From a virus, in IMG/VR virus record IMGVR_UViG_3300031660_000037, positions 1 to 28,331 of that record: a stretch of 28,331 bases of DNA. The stretch is one strand, 5' to 3'. Shown here in pieces: positions 8,485 to 28,260 of the stretch. The notes under the pieces are model-generated. The model made no database searches. It was not told where the DNA came from and saw only the letters and a program-made list of their open reading frames with translations. The position numbers were made by a program, and so were the translations under genes. The number at the start of each line of letters is the position of its first letter. Position 1 is the stretch's first letter.

Positions 8485-9000
8485 TTAGCTCTCAGCGCAT
8501 CGCATGTACTCAGCCACGTACCAGTCAGGTGCTATGTGTGTGAGATAGTGCTCTAAGTCCTTAAGAGCCTCAGCTATGGTCTTACGATGTGGAGGCCTGT
8601 ACTCATAACCCGTCAGGGTGGCCGCTACCCTGTAGCCTGATACATTCTTACTAATTAGCCTGTACTCAGTGCTTCCTTTCATAACCTTATTTAGGTTATT
8701 GATCTGTGGGGTCACTTCTCTTAGGTTGGTAGGATGGTTGTTAGTTTTGTCCCTGTCCATGTGGTCTATCTGCATACCGTCTACAGGGAGGCTACCAGTG
8801 TGCATAGTCCACACTAGGCGGCCCATAGGCACCTCTAGTCTAGCTCCGTCTACCGTGATACGTGCTCTTATGTAGCCTTTAGTGTTTAGGCGGCCTTTAT
8901 GCACCTCACCATTCCATGTCAGTATGACCTGACCACTATCGTTAAGTACCGCCTTATTAGCCTCTATTATCTTCAATATGTTTCTGTTTGTTTGTGACAT
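8485..9000 (-). CDS. HNH homing-type endonuclease, 171 aa
   Basis: The core at about residues 60-105 has the HNH_3 pattern: LVWTMHTGSLPVDGMQIDHMDRDKTNNHPTNLREVT, with the DH pair, N..N and the C-terminal NLREV strand. The N-terminal KGRLNTKGYIRARITVDGARLEVP is the usual beta-rich lead-in. The C-terminal part (KNVSGYRVAATLTG...RKTIAEALKDLEHY) resembles the DNA-binding tail of such free-standing endonucleases. It sits between the packaging HNH gene and the presumed packaging site, so it may be a selfish insertion. GGAGAGC lies before the start. Confidence 0.85.
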   Translation of the reverse strand: MSQTNRNILKIIEANKAVLNDSGQVILTWNGEVHKGRLNTKGYIRARITVDGARLEVPMGRLVWTMHTGSLPVDGMQIDHMDRDKTNNHPTNLREVTPQINNLNKVMKGSTEYRLISKNVSGYRVAATLTGYEYRPPHRKTIAEALKDLEHYLTHIAPDWYVAEYMRCAES

Positions 9001-9055: not shown

Positions 9056-9412
9056 TTATTGGCGATCTTTTGCCGTCTTTATAGCGTGACATCCATTACA
9101 TAGAGCCTGAAGATTAGAGCCTGTATATCGTAGCTCCCAGTCCACACGTATAGGGGTCACATGATCCACCATGTCGCATGGCTTAGTGATACCTTGTGAC
9201 ATACAGTGGGCACACAGTGGGTACCTCCTGCGGAAGGCCTTAGATAGGGACCTCCACTGGAGGCCCTGATAGAACGTGTTTAGCTTAGCTCTCTCAGGGG
9301 ATACCCTATAGGTAGTGGCCTTCTCCTTCCTGCAAGGCTCACATAGGGCACCCGTGGTAGCCATACCTGCACACATAGGGGTACCACATGCACTGGGTGC
9401 GGCTCTAGCCAT
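9056..9412 (-). CDS. HNH endonuclease of the packaging type (HK97 gp74-like)
   Basis: A 118-aa protein with paired cysteines (CGTPMC, CEPC) and the classic phage packaging HNH core: YQGLQWRSLSKAFRRRYPLCAHCMSQGITKPCDMVDHVTPIRVDW...NLQALCNGCHAIKTAKD. VDH carries the general-base histidine, and the CxxC pairs hold a structural zinc. In HK97-like phages this protein, encoded beside the terminase, is needed with it for cos cleavage. It overlaps the dNMP kinase end by 8 bp and precedes the packaging region, which supports that role. The stop is followed by ACAGTAACT. Confidence 0.9.
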   Translation of the reverse strand: MARAAPSACGTPMCAGMATTGALCEPCRKEKATTYRVSPERAKLNTFYQGLQWRSLSKAFRRRYPLCAHCMSQGITKPCDMVDHVTPIRVDWELRYTGSNLQALCNGCHAIKTAKDRQ

Positions 9413-10055
9413 ACCTGCACCGCCTAGCTACTCTATCCCACTCCTCTGGGCTAACGTCATCTAAGCCCATGCTCTGTGTAGGTAGACGCTGTAGCATAGC
9501 GGTCATCTGTGAGACCTCCATTCTTAGGTGTCCTATAGAGAGGCTATTGTCTATAACGTAGCATGGAGGCCTAGAGAGGCCTGCTTCTGAGGCATGGCTG
9601 GCAATAGGGGCGGCATCTGGACGATCTATGTATAGTATTGTCCCTGCGTTCTCTATGACCCAATCGGCCTCATTCTCATACCTTAAATCAGTAATAAATA
9701 GAAAATCGGCTTTCTGCTCTACAGCACTGTTAAAGCGCCTTTGTGCCAGCTTTATCCAGATCTGATCGTCGATCATCTGACGGGCATAATCATCGCCGAG
9801 TAGTTGCATTAATTGGCGAGGACTTGTCTTTAATCCATACGAATCGAGTAGTGATCCTTCTTTAAATTCACGATTATCAAAATCTGCGACATCACAGTCG
9901 AGTAAGCAGGCTACTGCCAGTTTGATAGGTGCGGCAAATGATAGCGTTCTAATGCGGACATTAGGATCTCTAGTTATCATCTGTTTAGTCATAATCTCGG
10001 CTGTCAGGTCCTTGCCTGAGCCAGCACTTCCTGTAAATGCAATTATCTTTGTCAT
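9405..10055 (-). CDS. Deoxynucleoside monophosphate kinase
   Basis: A 216-aa enzyme that phosphorylates dNMPs to feed phage DNA synthesis (T4 gp1-like family). The P-loop FTGSAGSGKDLTAE is at about residues 7-20. SFAAPIKLAVACLL, SPRQLMQLLGDDYARQMIDDQIWIKLAQRR and FLFITDLRYENEADWV are characteristic of the family. The start MTKIIAFTG at 10055 follows GAGGAGGCTATCA; an upstream in-frame ATG at 10106 lies within a terminator hairpin and is rejected. It overlaps the HNH gene by 8 bp. It is the first gene after a phage-type promoter and leader terminator. Confidence 0.9.
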   Translation of the reverse strand: MTKIIAFTGSAGSGKDLTAEIMTKQMITRDPNVRIRTLSFAAPIKLAVACLLDCDVADFDNREFKEGSLLDSYGLKTSPRQLMQLLGDDYARQMIDDQIWIKLAQRRFNSAVEQKADFLFITDLRYENEADWVIENAGTILYIDRPDAAPIASHASEAGLSRPPCYVIDNSLSIGHLRMEVSQMTAMLQRLPTQSMGLDDVSPEEWDRVARRCRYG

Positions 10056-10081: not shown

Positions 10082-10112
10082 AAAAAACCCCGAGGACGTT
10101 AAGCACTCGGGG
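10082..10112 (-). terminator. Intrinsic terminator in the leader of the packaging operon
   Basis: Minus strand CCCCGAG, 11-base loop, CTCGGGG, then TTTTTT: a strong rho-independent form. It lies about 145 bp after the predicted start of a phage-RNA-polymerase promoter and just before the dNMP kinase ribosome binding site, so it is either an attenuator or the end of a short RNA. Confidence 0.85.
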
Positions 10113-10256
10113 TCAATTAGGGCGCAGAGAGGCCATGGACGTCTCTGCTATATGTTGAAAATTAGGGCGTAGGGAAACGCTAAGTAGTGCGTACAGACCA
10201 CATAATAAAGTCCTACCAGTCACCTAAATCACTCTTAAAATCGAGTTTCTCTCTTC
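10082..10256 (-). ncRNA. Candidate short phage RNA or attenuated leader
   Basis: About 175 nt bounded by a predicted phage promoter start (G at 10256) and a strong terminator. It has no credible ORF. It contains two direct repeats of CGCCCTAATT (10169-10160 and 10124-10115) and a GCAGAG / CTCTGC stem around 10146-10122. The RNA either ends at the terminator or reads through into the packaging genes. Confidence 0.45.
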
Positions 10257-10280
10257 TGTATGGGACTTTTTTCGTTACAC
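10251..10280 (-). promoter_or_regulatory. Predicted phage RNA polymerase promoter, copy 1
   Basis: Minus strand GTGTAACGAAAAAAG followed by TCCCATACAGAAGAGA. It is one of three near-identical copies, differing from the others at one base. The end ATACA then GAAGAG matches the SP6 promoter initiation region (TATA then GAAGNG), which predicts a start at 10256. It follows the exonuclease gene and leads toward the packaging and head genes. Confidence 0.75.
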
Positions 10281-10323
10281 GCTGAAACCCACGCAATACG
10301 TGGGCTGTGGAAGTGTTGCACTG

Positions 10324-19351: not shown

Positions 19352-19954
19352 CTAGAGGTCGTCGATATCGATAGCTGACCCAGTGTTAGCGACGGGGGCG
19401 CTCTCGAATACTTCAGTACTAGACTCGGCGGCTTCGAACCCTTCGTCCATTCCGAATACAGAAGTAGCAGTAGCAGGACCAGAACCTCCAGCGTTGTTCT
19501 TACTGATCAGCTTAACCATATCAAGATACAAGCTAACGCCTTTCTGCGCCCCGTTGTATGCCTTAGCGGCTCCAGCTACTCGGATGGTGTCTCCACTCAT
19601 AATAATAATATTAGAAGGTAATTCGAAGTTCTTCGCGTCTACTAAAGTAGGTTGACGGGTGGACTTCATGGTCATAAACACCATGCCAGCGTACTGCTCT
19701 TTTCCTGAAGCACATCCGTCCTTAAGAGGGTTATGGAAGCTGGGAGGAACCTTGTCTCCGAACTCTCGCTGTGCGGCGTCCTTCACTACAGCCTTAAGCT
19801 GGGCGACGACTGGATCGTCTTTCTGGAATGCTACAGTAACTTTAAATTTACCATCGCTGAACTCAGACCCAGTATCGGGCTTATTGAGCCATGCGTAATG
19901 TGATGTTCCTGCGGTAGTAGAAAAGTTAACGTAGAGTGATTTTTTGGTAGACAT
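19352..19954 (-). CDS. T7 gp2.5-like single-stranded DNA-binding protein
   Basis: A 200-aa SSB. It has LYVNFSTTAGTSHYAWLNKPDTG, the FKVTVAFQKDD strand, REFGDKVPPSFHNPLKDG and LPSNIIIMSGDTIRVAGAAKAYN, the OB-fold order of gp2.5-like proteins in T7-like phages. A Gly/Ala/Ser-rich linker leads to an acidic tail with terminal hydrophobics (AIDIDDL), the typical contact point for polymerase and primase-helicase. GAGGAGAATCTCT precedes the ATG. It is the first large gene after the two phage-type promoters. Confidence 0.93.
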   Translation of the reverse strand: MSTKKSLYVNFSTTAGTSHYAWLNKPDTGSEFSDGKFKVTVAFQKDDPVVAQLKAVVKDAAQREFGDKVPPSFHNPLKDGCASGKEQYAGMVFMTMKSTRQPTLVDAKNFELPSNIIIMSGDTIRVAGAAKAYNGAQKGVSLYLDMVKLISKNNAGGSGPATATSVFGMDEGFEAAESSTEVFESAPVANTGSAIDIDDL

Positions 19955-20036: not shown

Positions 20037-20201
20037 TTACTTAATGAACTCTATAGAGCCATCTGGCCTTACTAGGTATGATCCTGTTTGGTTTATGTTG
20101 AGTGATGAGACGTATGCTTCAGTAGTGTCAACATTAGCCATGATGTCTATTTGATCGTTGAGTTTATCCATTGCTTTATCTATTGAGTCTTGAATGTTCA
20201 T
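20037..20201 (-). CDS. Hypothetical protein, 54 aa, first gene of the replication operon
   Basis: A 54-codon ORF (MNIQDSIDKAMDKLNDQIDIM...SYLVRPDGSIEFIK) with AAAGGA about 9 bases before the ATG. The first 25 residues form an amphipathic helix with heptad-like I/L/M spacing, probably a coiled coil. It lies 85 bp after the phage promoter copy 2 and 82 bp before the SSB start. No family recognised. Confidence 0.65.
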   Translation of the reverse strand: MNIQDSIDKAMDKLNDQIDIMANVDTTEAYVSSLNINQTGSYLVRPDGSIEFIK

Positions 20202-20283: not shown

Positions 20284-20311
20284 CTTCTGTATGGGACCTT
20301 TTTCGTTACAC
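20284..20311 (-). promoter_or_regulatory. Predicted phage RNA polymerase promoter, copy 2
   Basis: Minus strand GTGTAACGAAAAAGG then TCCCATACAGAAG, followed by AGG, giving GAAGAG at the predicted start (20287). It is identical over 27 bp to copy 3, which lies about 125 bp away. It leads into the SSB operon. Confidence 0.8.
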
Positions 20312-20408
20312 TTATCTAATACCCAGACACAGCACCGCCTGAGGCCGAGTGGACCATCTTGGTAATAGGGGTGTGATTAGGGGATATACTTAGTGGAATC
20401 TAGGGGTC

Positions 20409-20435
20409 CTTCTGTATGGGACCTTTTTCGTTACA
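20409..20435 (-). promoter_or_regulatory. Predicted phage RNA polymerase promoter, copy 3
   Basis: The same 27-bp repeat, predicted start 20412 with GAAGGA. It lies directly after an intrinsic terminator that ends the early operon, the expected place for the switch from host to phage polymerase. The 97 bp between copies 3 and 2 hold no credible gene. Confidence 0.8.
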
Positions 20436-20440
20436 GGCAT

Positions 20441-20462
20441 AAAAAAACCCAGCAGGGCTGGG
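20441..20462 (-). terminator. Intrinsic terminator ending the early operon
   Basis: Minus strand CCCAGC-CCT-GCTGGG followed by TTTTTTT, 32 bp after the stop of the 88-aa gene. It is a canonical rho-independent terminator separating early genes from the replication operon. Confidence 0.9.
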
Positions 20463-20493
20463 CTTGTAGGTTAAAAATCAGTGGCGCAGTTCT

Positions 20494-21097: not shown

Positions 21098-21125
21098 ATT
21101 ATACAGTAACTTACTAACTATACAA
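21098..21125 (-). promoter_or_regulatory. Sigma70-like early promoter with dyad in spacer
   Basis: -35 TTGTAT (21125-21120), 16-bp spacer, -10 TATAAT (21103-21098). The inverted repeat AGTAACTTACT (21105-21115) fills most of the spacer, a classical place for an operator. Upstream it shares TTTATTTACTAGTTAGG with the promoter at 22796-22823. Confidence 0.75.
21105..21115. promoter_or_regulatory. Candidate operator AGTAACTTACT, site 1
   Basis: A perfect 11-bp inverted repeat (AGTAA-C-TTACT). Exact copies occur also at 26084-26094 and 26750-26760, all beside or inside predicted promoters. It is a candidate binding site for a phage regulator; the protein is not known. Confidence 0.45.
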
Positions 21126-22795: not shown

Positions 22796-22823
22796 AGTAT
22801 ACAGTGACTCTATAACGTGTCAA
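22796..22823 (-). promoter_or_regulatory. Sigma70-like early promoter
   Basis: -35 TTGACA (22823-22818), 16-bp spacer, -10 TATACT (22801-22796), then the CATCAAGACAACAAATAC leader. It drives the six-gene early operon down to the terminator at 21158. Confidence 0.85.
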
Positions 22824-23416: not shown

Positions 23417-25900
23417 TTACGAGAAAAAATAAAGGGCGTTAGTTATCTCGTTAATGTCGTAGTCGCCTAGTGTTGGTGGAGTTGGTAGCTCGACATCTGT
23501 ATTCGACTGCACGTAGTCGTGTAGGTCCTGTAGAGGGTTGCCGCTAAACATCTCGAACGCTACCGCTCTTAAAGCCACATGAAGCTCTTCTACATTGCTA
23601 GGGTGCATACCGTAGCTATCGTGGATCATTGCAAATGAGTCATGACCTGCCTGCTTTAGACGCTCTAACGTCATCTGTAACATCGCCGCGTCTAATGAGT
23701 GGATGATGTTCGGGGCTGAGCTATTCGCCTGCTTGGTAACACGTAGCCCCATCTCTGCGTCTTCGACCATCAAACGGATATCACCCAGTACAGTCTTAAC
23801 TCGCTTCTCTGCTAGGTTGTTGTACTGCTGTGTGACCTTAAGACCCATAGGCGTGTACCAGCTAAGGCCTAAACCTACTTCAGCGAGTGCGAGTGTCATA
23901 GTCTGGAAGTAGTGCATGATCTCTACAGCCTTACCGTTAACAGACCCCATAGACTCTAGGATAGCCTTCGTCATGTACTGCGCCGCTTCCTTAGAGTTAC
24001 TCATGCCGACACAGTGGTCGTCATTCTCTAACTGGGTAGCGATACCCTTAGGAGTAACGCCGTAGGGGACGGTCATACAGGCGCGTTTAACGATTCCACG
24101 GCCCTTGCCAAACCTAGCGGCCCACTCTTTAGCCATTGGGTTCTCATCTTGATCACGCGCAATTATAGCCCTTACTGCGGTGGCTACTGTCATGTAGAGA
24201 TCCTGTCGCTCATCTAAAGAAGTGCAGTTAGTCGCCTTAGCTCCGATCTGATCCTTACCTAGCATAGATAAAATCTGCATCCCGTTGCAGGTTCCGTCTT
24301 GCGCTACTGCTATGTGGCTCACAAAATCAGAAGGATTAGACAGCTTCATAGCTTCGGTAATTTCTCTAGCCGCCGCTAGAAAGGGTAATGCTTCGTTATC
24401 CACTTTACCTTGATCATTTATAATTACCCAGCGTTGATCAGTTATATAGTTACTGGATACTGAGGCCATAAGCTCGAGGTTATCCCAACCCCACTGCTCA
24501 CGATCAGTAAGAGACGCCTTGTCCATTCCGTAGCAGTTAGCCGCGTGAATCATCAACCACTTAAGACCTGACTCCCCTAGCTTCTTACCATTAGCAAACT
24601 GTAATAGGCCCTTAGCGATCTGGTCGCCCTGTGGTGTAAGCTCTGAGCACATAGGATAAAGACGGCCTCTGAAGTCTGCAAAATGTGGGAAGAAAAACTC
24701 CTCGTGTACTGACATCTTCTCAGCAATCGCCAGCTTACGTAGGAAAGCTGAATGCTTCCCACGATGACTAGCCATCGCCTTAACTATCGCGGTCCGTTTC
24801 TTTTGATACTTCTTAGCCTCTTCCTTATCCATAGCTTCGTAGTCTGCTTGGTCCATGTAAGGAGTGGTAGTCTCATCGTTCTGTGTAACACCACCGACAG
24901 CCAGCTTCATATCGGCCAGCGTCTTAATAACTAGCAGAGTAAACGGGTTGACAGCCCACGCTGTATTTTGCAGGATGCTAACCGACTCTAGGAACCGAAC
25001 AGAAGCCGCTGAATTGTCGGCTGAAGTATGAGCCGTTAGACGTGAGTCAGAGAATAGACCCTTATCAATATGGTAGTAGCCACCCTCAACCTTACCCTCG
25101 ACATACTTCCAATCTCGCGGCTTGATTAATGTAGGCAATAAGAAGGGGCGCTGTAGCTCGGCGGTCTCTTCGGAGATTACGTAGGTATTCCACGCCTCGT
25201 CTGTCATGATGAATTTGCGCTCCTGCTTGTTGCGAGTCTTGATCGTTTTGTACTCAAAGAACTCAGAGCAGTAGGTTACGAGAATGTCCAATAACTTAGC
25301 GCCTATGTTGTACTCGTCCTCTCCCCATTCTATGTTTTTGTAGGACTCGAACTTCTTCTCCCATCGCGCCAGCTTAGGGCGTGTAATTTGCCCCTTTGCC
25401 TGCTCAATCAAATATTGAGCCTTTGACTTACGACGTGTCTCACCTTCACCACAGCTAAAATTATGTTCCTTAAGTAGTTCCTTTTCGGTCTCCTTCCAGT
25501 TCTCAAATTTTACCTGCTGGCGTATTTGTTTACCGATCTCCTTAGTTAAAGGACGGACAATACCCTCCCTACCTTGGTCCTGATTACTGCATGATTGAAT
25601 AGCCTTATTCAGGGTTATCACTGCGGCCTGCTCAGCAGATACTAGTCCGATCATGTATACCCAGTTATCCTTACCGCCTGAGGTTGGTGAGTAGAGTGCT
25701 TTCTCTACATCTGACCATGCTTCCTTAATACCTTCGATTAGCTGAGGAATAGCCTGCTTAAGGAGTTTCTGACCGCCGGTGGTAGCTTCCATCGTCTTTG
25801 ATTCCTTCAAGGCGTTGTACTTAGCTACGCCCTCATCGATTGCGTGGTTTTCCCATAAAATCTCTTTGATCATCATCTCGGTAGTTATTGTATTTTCCAT
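23417..25900 (-). CDS. T7-like single-subunit DNA-dependent RNA polymerase
   Basis: An 827-aa polymerase, near the T7 length of 883. Motifs: PHFADFRGRLYP (405-416); motif A VAQDGTCNGMQILS (532-545) with metal ligand Asp535; motif B VKRACMTVPYGVTPKG (604-619) with Lys605 and Tyr613, equal to T7 Lys631 and Tyr639; SAPNIIHSLDAAML (728-741); motif C AMIHDSYGMHP (757-767) with Asp761; terminus YFFS instead of T7 FAFA. The residues before SAPN (about 690-725) should be the promoter-reading specificity loop. It has a sigma70-like promoter and lies beside attP. It likely reads the three GAAGRG promoters. Confidence 0.97.
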   Translation of the reverse strand: MENTITTEMMIKEILWENHAIDEGVAKYNALKESKTMEATTGGQKLLKQAIPQLIEGIKEAWSDVEKALYSPTSGGKDNWVYMIGLVSAEQAAVITLNKAIQSCSNQDQGREGIVRPLTKEIGKQIRQQVKFENWKETEKELLKEHNFSCGEGETRRKSKAQYLIEQAKGQITRPKLARWEKKFESYKNIEWGEDEYNIGAKLLDILVTYCSEFFEYKTIKTRNKQERKFIMTDEAWNTYVISEETAELQRPFLLPTLIKPRDWKYVEGKVEGGYYHIDKGLFSDSRLTAHTSADNSAASVRFLESVSILQNTAWAVNPFTLLVIKTLADMKLAVGGVTQNDETTTPYMDQADYEAMDKEEAKKYQKKRTAIVKAMASHRGKHSAFLRKLAIAEKMSVHEEFFFPHFADFRGRLYPMCSELTPQGDQIAKGLLQFANGKKLGESGLKWLMIHAANCYGMDKASLTDREQWGWDNLELMASVSSNYITDQRWVIINDQGKVDNEALPFLAAAREITEAMKLSNPSDFVSHIAVAQDGTCNGMQILSMLGKDQIGAKATNCTSLDERQDLYMTVATAVRAIIARDQDENPMAKEWAARFGKGRGIVKRACMTVPYGVTPKGIATQLENDDHCVGMSNSKEAAQYMTKAILESMGSVNGKAVEIMHYFQTMTLALAEVGLGLSWYTPMGLKVTQQYNNLAEKRVKTVLGDIRLMVEDAEMGLRVTKQANSSAPNIIHSLDAAMLQMTLERLKQAGHDSFAMIHDSYGMHPSNVEELHVALRAVAFEMFSGNPLQDLHDYVQSNTDVELPTPPTLGDYDINEITNALYFFS

Positions 25901-26847: not shown

Positions 26848-27879
26848 CTATGAGAGTGCGCGTAATACTTTAGAACCGATATCGCCAGTGCTTAGGTGCG
26901 CGTATTTTTGAGTCATTATTGGAGAGGCATGTCCTAACATCGTCTGGACTTCGTAAAGGGTACAACCGGCCCTAATAAGCCGTGTAGCGTAGGTGTCCCT
27001 ACAACTATGTCCCACAAATTTACCCAGCTTAGCAACGATCTCAGGCGTGTTTAAACCGGCCCGACCAGCGGCTAGTATGAGTGCTTTTGTTGCTGTTGTT
27101 CTATGCGTTCCTATCTTGGTTTTATGTGGAAACACATAGGCAGATATGGAGGTCTCTTCTCGCCTCTCTAGGACCTCTAGGAGACGTTTAGTGATAGGTA
27201 GTAGCGAACGTATCCCCGTCTTACCTCTGTACGTTACAAGGCACTCTACGCCGTTCTCTGAGGTCCTATCAGTCCACATAGTGGCTACAGCTTCAGAGAT
27301 CCTCATTCCTGTATCCAGAAGGAAGACAGTAAGGTCCTTAAGATCCTGTTCCTTCATAGCATCGAGGAGCTTCTCCTCCTCACCATCATTAAGGTGTCTA
27401 AATTTAGCTACCGTCTTCAGCTTCTTAACTTTAAATGGTGGCTCTAGAATCTCCCAGACATCAGCGCGGTTACGCATGGTCGTGAGGGCCGTTGTAATAT
27501 GGTTAATTGAGGCAGGCTTCAGGGTCTCTGATTTGAGTTTCTGTAGCTTAATAATGTCCCTGCTGGTTAGGGTTTCGAAGGGCACATCAGGACTCCATAT
27601 AGAGCCGTCTAAGAGGTGTAGGACATTGAACTTAGCGTTGGCATAGGTAGCCTTCTCTTTATGACTCTGGTCATCCAAGTACGCCGCACAGGCATCGAAT
27701 AGAGACATACTTCTGCTCTTACCATAGTTCGATGAATCATTAATGACCTGTTGCTGGTAGGTTGCAATCTGTATCGCTTCCCGTTTTAGAGAAGTCTTTG
27801 AACTGAATCTCTTCTTTCCATTAGGCGTGGAGAGTTCGATCTGCCAGATGTCAGACCCGTTACGCTTATATACTCTCAA
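26848..27879 (-). CDS. int: Tyrosine recombinase integrase
   Basis: A 343-aa site-specific recombinase. It has an N-terminal arm-binding part (MRVYKRNGSDIWQIELSTPNGKKRFSSKTS), then a SAM-like core-binding domain (about 58-145). The catalytic domain has Arg193 in LLDTGMRISEAV, Lys near 221, His291 and Arg294 in GHSCRDTYATRLI, His317 in MLGHASPIMTQKYAHLS and nucleophile Tyr326: the full set. It starts at TTG (27879), sharing TTGA with the stop of the XRE gene, with no ribosome binding site of its own, so it must be translationally coupled. attP lies about 0.66 kb downstream. Confidence 0.95.
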   Translation of the reverse strand: MRVYKRNGSDIWQIELSTPNGKKRFSSKTSLKREAIQIATYQQQVINDSSNYGKSRSMSLFDACAAYLDDQSHKEKATYANAKFNVLHLLDGSIWSPDVPFETLTSRDIIKLQKLKSETLKPASINHITTALTTMRNRADVWEILEPPFKVKKLKTVAKFRHLNDGEEEKLLDAMKEQDLKDLTVFLLDTGMRISEAVATMWTDRTSENGVECLVTYRGKTGIRSLLPITKRLLEVLERREETSISAYVFPHKTKIGTHRTTATKALILAAGRAGLNTPEIVAKLGKFVGHSCRDTYATRLIRAGCTLYEVQTMLGHASPIMTQKYAHLSTGDIGSKVLRALS

Positions 27880-28196
27880 TTAAGGAGATCTAGCATTTCT
27901 ATCTTAGTATTTCCCCATAAGGCTTTATAGGTATGCGGATCGTAATACTGCATTAACTTCCTGACGAACTTCTCAGGATCTACGCCTAGAACTTTCGCGT
28001 AGGGAATGTAAGTGTCCGGCGGTATTCGCGCCGTACCAGCTTCCATCTGAGCTATCATTGTGTAATAGTTCATTTTAAGAGCCACAGCCACTTCACGTTG
28101 TGTAAGCCCTGCATGTGTTCGTAGTGCCTTAATGAACAAACCGCCTTCTTTGCGGAGTGCTAGATTCTCCTCGGTTCGTGCCCCTTGCTTATTCAT
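27876..28196 (-). CDS. XRE-family helix-turn-helix regulator, 106 aa
   Basis: Residues 20-72 have the classic HTH_3 form: FIKALRTHAGLTQREVAVALKMNYYTMIAQMEAGTARIPPDTYIPYAKVLGVDPEKFV, with the LTQREVA turn and IAQMEAGTARIP recognition region. There is no protease-type C-terminal domain as in lambda CI, so induction by RecA cleavage is not expected. It is in an operon with the integrase, sharing 4 bp. It is the best candidate for the lysogeny repressor or a Cro-like protein. Confidence 0.9.
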   Translation of the reverse strand: MNKQGARTEENLALRKEGGLFIKALRTHAGLTQREVAVALKMNYYTMIAQMEAGTARIPPDTYIPYAKVLGVDPEKFVRKLMQYYDPHTYKALWGNTKIEMLDLLN

Positions 28197-28231: not shown

Positions 28232-28260
28232 AAGATAAGTTATAATCTCACTGTTGTCAA
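28232..28260 (-). promoter_or_regulatory. Sigma70-like promoter of the regulator-integrase operon
   Basis: -35 TTGACA (28260-28255), 17-bp spacer, -10 TATCTT (28237-28232). A TATAAT on the opposite strand (28241-28246) lies in the spacer but lacks a good -35. Confidence 0.55.

Follow-up and report, generated by a model that had tools for sequence, protein, structure and literature searches.

Three oriented repeats as predicted promoters for the single-subunit RNA polymerase of a temperate marine phage

The 28.3-kb IMG/VR virus record analyzed here in full (28,331 nucleotides; hereafter, the window) carries three copies of a short oriented repeat together with a gene for a single-subunit RNA polymerase (RNAP), raising the question of whether the repeats are the promoters of that enzyme and, if so, to which polymerase-promoter family they belong. 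A sequence-only reading had described a 27-28-bp repeat in three minus-strand copies differing at one base, and our searches bear this out: TGTAACGAAAAARGTCCCATACAGAAG has three exact matches in the whole window, all on the minus strand (10253-10279, 20284-20310 and 20409-20435), and none in 100 dinucleotide shuffles of it (chance expectation zero). The sole difference among the copies over 27 bases lies at -11, which is A in the 10253 copy and G in the other two. No further copy with up to eight mismatches was found in the window, and a degenerate scan of IMG/VR for the repeat matched only L004 and L005. We refer to the tandem pair, spaced 125 bp apart, as copy A (20409..20435, minus strand; predicted +1 at G20412, initial transcript GAAGGACCCC) and copy B (20284..20310, minus strand; G20287, GAAGAGGCCCC), and to the late copy as copy C (10253..10279, minus strand; G10256, GAAGAGAGAAA). 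A 5' stem-loop (GGCCCC..GGGGCC, z -1.75) is predicted for copy B. The predicted initial transcribed bases are GAAGGA at 20412 and GAAGAG at both 20287 and 10256; the SP6 start GAAGNG, previously assigned to all three copies, holds for B and C and fails for A.

All major genes of the window lie on the minus strand. In order of transcription, an HTH protein (27876-28196; a candidate DNA-binding regulator), the integrase, the RNAP and small early genes are followed by an intrinsic terminator (20445..20465, minus strand) just upstream of copy A, placing the tandem pair behind the end of the early region, as had been proposed. Copies A and B precede a small ORF of 54 aa (20037..20201, minus strand), the ssDNA-binding protein (SSB) gene, second in the middle operon (19352..19954, minus strand; phrog_112, 2.7e-33; Pfam Enc34_ssDNA-bd), and genes for a RusA-like resolvase, endonuclease VII, primase/helicase, ribonucleotide reductase, methylase, DNA polymerase and exonuclease. 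Copy C comes next, ahead of dNMP kinase, HNH genes, TerS, TerL, portal, protease and capsid. A weak terminator-like hairpin (CCCACG..CGTGGG TTT; 10288..10304, minus strand), conserved in L005/L150, lies upstream of copy C behind the exonuclease gene. Five sigma-70-like sites score at least 10/12 on the minus strand, all inside 22.8-28.3 kb: one at 22796..22823 (TTGACA-16-TATACT) and others with 5' ends at 28260, 26806, 25985 and 23389. Downstream of the early region, the repeats are the sole promoter-like elements of note, and no copy precedes the RNAP gene in the window.

The phage is a temperate marine virus with an HK97-type head, as seen in its packaging and head genes (portal PF04860, TerL PF03354/PF20441, capsid PF05065); the combination of RNAP with T7-type portal, capsid and short tail that characterizes Autographiviridae is not found in the window. 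Long tails are likely, because a 45-kb relative carries major tail protein, tail terminator and head-tail adaptor families.

The putative cognate polymerase (23417..25900, minus strand; 827 aa) is a T7-superfamily single-subunit RNAP (Pfam RNA_pol PF00940, 1.5e-89; phrog_414, 2.5e-174) with an intact active site: the residues at T7 positions 472, 537, 627, 631, 635, 639, 811 and 812 are identical to those of T7. Its overall kinship is distant, with 23% identity to T7, 25.0% to SP6, and 27-28% to LUZ100, CRP-113 and ProddE, the last three of which also carry an integrase just upstream of the RNAP gene; the best matches in annotated phages stay below 30%. In a quick tree, the group of the window RNAP separated from T7, SP6, Syn5 and phiKMV. 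The same tree, which has long branches and includes mitochondrial sequences as fragments only, placed this group on the mitochondrial side, with L026 beside the mitochondrial sequences and L020 also concerned, and the best PDB match of the window RNAP is yeast mitochondrial RNA polymerase. An AlphaFold model built from 16 rows was poor (pLDDT 61, pTM 0.39).

The repeats have the general makeup of T7-superfamily promoters, being a repeated, oriented, intergenic element of 20-25 bp situated after the early genes and before replication and late genes. Among phage RNAP promoters, conservation falls on positions -4, -3, -1 and +1, and T7, T3 and SP6 share CACTATAG at -7..+1 (PMC13029058). All four positions are conserved in the window repeat, although its core CCATACAG retains the full consensus only in part (5/8, with matches at -7 C, -4 T, -3 A, -1 A and +1 G); one related core discussed below, CCCTATAG of the L095 class, matches at 7/8. 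When CACTATAG is scored in the window alone, alternative registers tie with the chosen one, and the register therefore rests on the relatives.

Searches for related loci returned nothing with the single RNAP sequence as query but succeeded with alignments as queries, yielding, with RNAPs 48-67% identical to that of the window, fifteen loci from IMG/VR plus a prophage of SAR92 clade bacterium H921. The prophage (L141-L142; JAOALD010000003.1, about 285-308 kb) points to a host group for these phages. Gene order in the relatives is that of the window, the genes for primase/helicase and DNA polymerase are conserved from class to class, the small ORF keeps its place (43-72% aa identity) wherever the region is present, and in every relative read the SSB promoters are preceded by a hairpin with a T-run. 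Relatives whose RNAPs are 48-54% identical to the window's carry class-specific promoter-like sequences in the same two slots, the first between the terminator and the small ORF-SSB pair and the second between the exonuclease gene and the next gene.

In the first slot, each RNAP group has its own sequence. The window class reads TGTAACGAAAAAGGTCCCATACA followed by GAAGRG from +1, twice; the L012 class TGTAACGATTAACCTACTTAATA followed by GGAAGA, twice; the L013/L099/L101 class TGTAACGATTAASCTACRTTATAT followed by GRAAGAC, twice, with its G one base later than in the other classes; the L014/L100 class GTGCTYCACGTAAAGCCCCCCTTTA followed by GAGAGA, twice; and the L095/L094/L097/L098/L102/prophage class GGTCACAAAACCCCGCCCTATA followed by GAGGACC, once. 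The tandem arrangement is accordingly seen in the window, L012, L013, L099, L101, L014 and L100, and the single copy in L095, L094, L097, L098, L102 and the SAR92 prophage. L092 was left out of the classes because its contig ends inside the RNAP gene. Each class also has its own version in the second slot: L149/L150 carry the window class, L155 the L012 class, L151 (from the same metagenome as L014) the L014 class, L152-L154 and L164 the L013 class, and L156-L163 and the prophage the L095 class. Allowing up to three mismatches, the L095-class pattern matches the 2.6-Mb SAR92 genome once, at a site within the prophage, whose late copy diverges more.

Aligned at +1, all five classes share -7 C and -1 A, with an AT-rich stretch leading into the G, and -11 varies within three of them. 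This alignment supports the register, and with it the starts at 20412, 20287 and 10256 that had been predicted from the window. Conservation at copy C is tight: 29/29 bases of the copy and its start are kept in L005/L150, where the exonuclease and dNMP kinase DNA are 74% and 63% identical, respectively. Identity within classes begins at about -23 (window, L012, L013), -25 (L014) or -21 (L095) and extends a few bases past +1. Recognition of the T7 promoter starts at -17 (PMC10138996); since the conserved block reaches beyond this, to about -23, part of it may serve another protein.

Two further observations concern the copies themselves. Late copies (window 10256, L155, L164, L153, L159) commonly show A at -11 and begin with a longer run of purines only (GAAGAGAGAAA, GGAGAGAAAA, GAAGGAGGAA), and copies at SSB run into C-rich sequence after 5-7 bases; these differences could possibly encode strength or timing. 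Separately, promoter copies at L013 9126-9160 and 13129-13195 and at L099 12922-12980 have an intrinsic terminator within about 10 nt. One of these L013 units is conserved in L099, and such units would yield very short RNAs.

With five polymerase groups matched by five promoter classes in the same slots, the three repeats are very probably promoters of the phage's own T7-superfamily RNAP (23417-25900), in keeping with the earlier proposal. To compare the polymerases where they would contact these sequences, we aligned the specificity loop (residues about 694-716; 23753..23821, minus strand) to that of T7, matching residues to T7 R746, N748, R756 and Q758 by motif and allowing for a loop one residue shorter. 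The loops are alike within promoter classes and unlike between them, the four residues being R-K-R-M in the window, R-Q-I/V-W in L012/L013, R-Q-R-E in L014 and E-K-I/V-H in the L095 class. Between L012 and L013, RNAP identity is 66% overall and 78% in the loop, and the promoters agree over -17..-7 except at -11; between the window and L092, it is 67% overall and 61% in the loop, with the L092 loop differing at the equivalents of T7 748, 756 and 758. This pattern fits a coupling of loop and promoter, as a search for co-variation in related phages had been expected to reveal, although with only four or five independent lineages the agreement could come from phylogeny alone.

The change of repeat class along with the polymerase also bears on the view that a phage DNA-binding protein, such as the HTH regulator encoded at 27876-28196, uses the repeats as operators and that they are not promoters. 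Such a role would account for a conserved block that extends to about -23, past the reach of a T7-type promoter; however, the repeat is non-palindromic, strictly oriented and located after terminators, and it ends in a TATA-like stretch, a G and purines. A better operator candidate is TACAGTAACTTA, which is partly palindromic and lies near early sigma-70 promoters in relatives, and we regard an operator function of the repeats as very unlikely. TACAGTAACTTA itself, a candidate operator of the HTH regulator, occurs in the window at 21102 and 13108, in L092 at 8723-8747 and 8895-8919 (where it is palindromic), in L095 at 12519, 14027, 14487 and 14552, and in L012 at 12484, 13080, 13606 and 14160.

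If the repeats are promoters of the phage RNAP, there is still the question of family. They had been called SP6-like, and membership in the SP6 (Zindervirus) polymerase-promoter family would agree with the GAAGAG starts and with the window loop RVKTVLGDIRLM, which resembles RVRTCLMGDIKMS of SP6. The SP6 consensus ATTTAGGTGACACTATAGAAGNG is matched only at the start GAAGRG, at -7 C, -4 T, -3 A and -1 A, and by the G at -11 in two copies, whereas -13..-8 is unlike SP6; the RNAP is 25% identical to that of SP6 and 23% to that of T7, and lies on a different branch of the tree. A GAAG start is not a lineage mark, because sister classes begin GGAAGA, GAGAGA or GAGGAC. True SP6-type promoters are thus highly improbable here, and the family label should be dropped since the RNAP groups with neither SP6 nor T7; the accompanying suggestion of a new specificity is supported. 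A leftover SP6 promoter (ATTTAGGTGAC near 10230) was also considered, but it lies inside the leader described below, is lacking in that form from the other classes, and was set down to chance.

In T7, the tandem promoters phi1.1A/B lie near the primary origin. Tandem copies after the early genes recall that arrangement, and a strongly conserved 175-nt stretch lies behind copy C, upstream of the terminase genes; yet replication-origin or packaging sites devoid of a promoter role are most improbable, as a pure origin fails to account for a repeat that changes by clade, recurs as a late copy at 10 kb distance and ends in TATA-G-purine, and all classes have conserved genes for primase/helicase and DNA polymerase. 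A dual role as origin and promoter is possible.

Taking the repeats as promoters, the sequence behind copy C complicates its relation to the late genes. Copy C does precede dNMP kinase, HNH, TerS, TerL, portal and capsid genes, as had been stated, but it does not simply feed the packaging genes, because a conserved non-coding leader of 175 nt (10082..10256, minus strand), its predicted product, and an intrinsic terminator ending that leader (ACCCCGAG...CTCGGGGTTTTTT; 10082..10113, minus strand) intervene. The first gene thereafter encodes dNMP kinase (9405..10055, minus strand; phrog_139, 2.1e-43), for which the ATG at 10055 with CTGAGGAGG is a more probable start codon than the GTG that is listed. 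The part of the leader that precedes the terminator shares 94% nucleotide identity with that of L150, compared to 63-76% in the flanking genes. A unit of promoter, 165-193-nt leader, terminator (hairpin and U-tract) and CTGAGGAG is found in every class, with leader equivalents at L150 5130-5296, L151 2865-3033, L155 4122-4287, L153 6812-6984, L164 6812-6983, L159 6793-6985 and L141 13603-13794 (minus strand). The gene that follows varies, being dNMP kinase, a different protein in L153/L164, or another in L155.

RNAalifold gave no convincing consensus fold for the leaders, which fold no better than shuffles when the terminator is removed (z -1.3 to +0.4), and the leader has no Rfam match; it may therefore act as DNA, as loosely structured RNA, or through a fold that these methods did not find. 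T7, T3 and SP6 RNAPs terminate at intrinsic terminators with 12-86% efficiency (PMC11347151), which makes a late-gene attenuator a reasonable proposal; a small RNA or a DNA site is likewise possible.

From this arrangement we infer where the phage RNAP initiates, when, and how far it reads. Host RNA polymerase would start at the sigma-70 promoters of the 22.8-28.3 kb region, produce the regulator, integrase, phage polymerase and early proteins, and stop at the 20445-20465 terminator. The phage polymerase would then transcribe the small ORF, SSB and the replication genes from G20412 and G20287, and the conserved 175-nt leader from G10256; leader transcripts would partly end at the 10082 terminator, with read-through supplying the dNMP kinase, packaging and head genes. 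A bolder possibility, which we advance tentatively and with more doubt than confidence, is that these phages represent a deep, undescribed RNAP branch whose promoters extend about 6 bp further 5' than those of T7 (the TGTAACGA box at -23..-16, retained by two groups despite a changing core), and whose late genes may be gated by a leader RNA transcribed by the phage RNAP and its terminator, in a layout like the pR'-6S RNA-tR' of lambda.

Together, the five natural polymerase-promoter pairs, with polymerases mostly 46-67% identical, offer a test set for the joint change of loop and promoter and may supply mutually independent transcription parts. The pairs would likewise place a T7-type transcription switch in temperate phages that have HK97 heads and belong to marine gammaproteobacteria, and the unit of promoter C, leader and terminator raises the prospect of late-gene control by termination, which has hardly been studied for single-subunit polymerases.

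Judged from sequence, the window system has a new, upstream-extended specificity within a deep-branching RNAP of temperate HK97-head phages, and its predicted working principle is that of T7, LUZ100 and Xp10. With SP6 it shares the GAAGNG start and similar loop residues, but its RNAP (25% identical) sits on another branch and its recognition bases differ. The likeness to T7 includes a tandem pair just after the RNAP gene (phi1.1A/phi1.1B, 75 bp apart), -7 C, -4 T, -3 A, -1 A and +1 G, and starts such as GAGGGAC; T7 is, however, a lytic podovirus with a different -17..-8 sequence and recognition to -17, as opposed to conservation to about -23 in the window. Xanthomonas phage Xp10 has lambda/HK97-like head genes. 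By its published description, Xp10 also has its own single-subunit RNAP, a distant T7 relative, and differs in being lytic and in using the P7 antitermination protein. Two long perfect repeats upstream of its structural cluster contain two confirmed promoters of about 20 bp (PMC4331800), and its switch from host to phage RNAP includes a terminator that separates early from late genes (PMC3985653). LUZ100, a T7-like Pseudomonas phage with temperate features and promoters phi1-phi8, resembles the window in its order of regulator, integrase, RNAP and SSB, in its tandem phage promoters before SSB (phi2/phi3, mapped directly upstream of that gene) and in having its own promoter specificity (PMC10134795); it differs in an RNAP 27% identical to the window's, AATTACCACACAGGTATGGA-like promoters, T7-type podovirus structural genes and a phage promoter before the RNAP gene.
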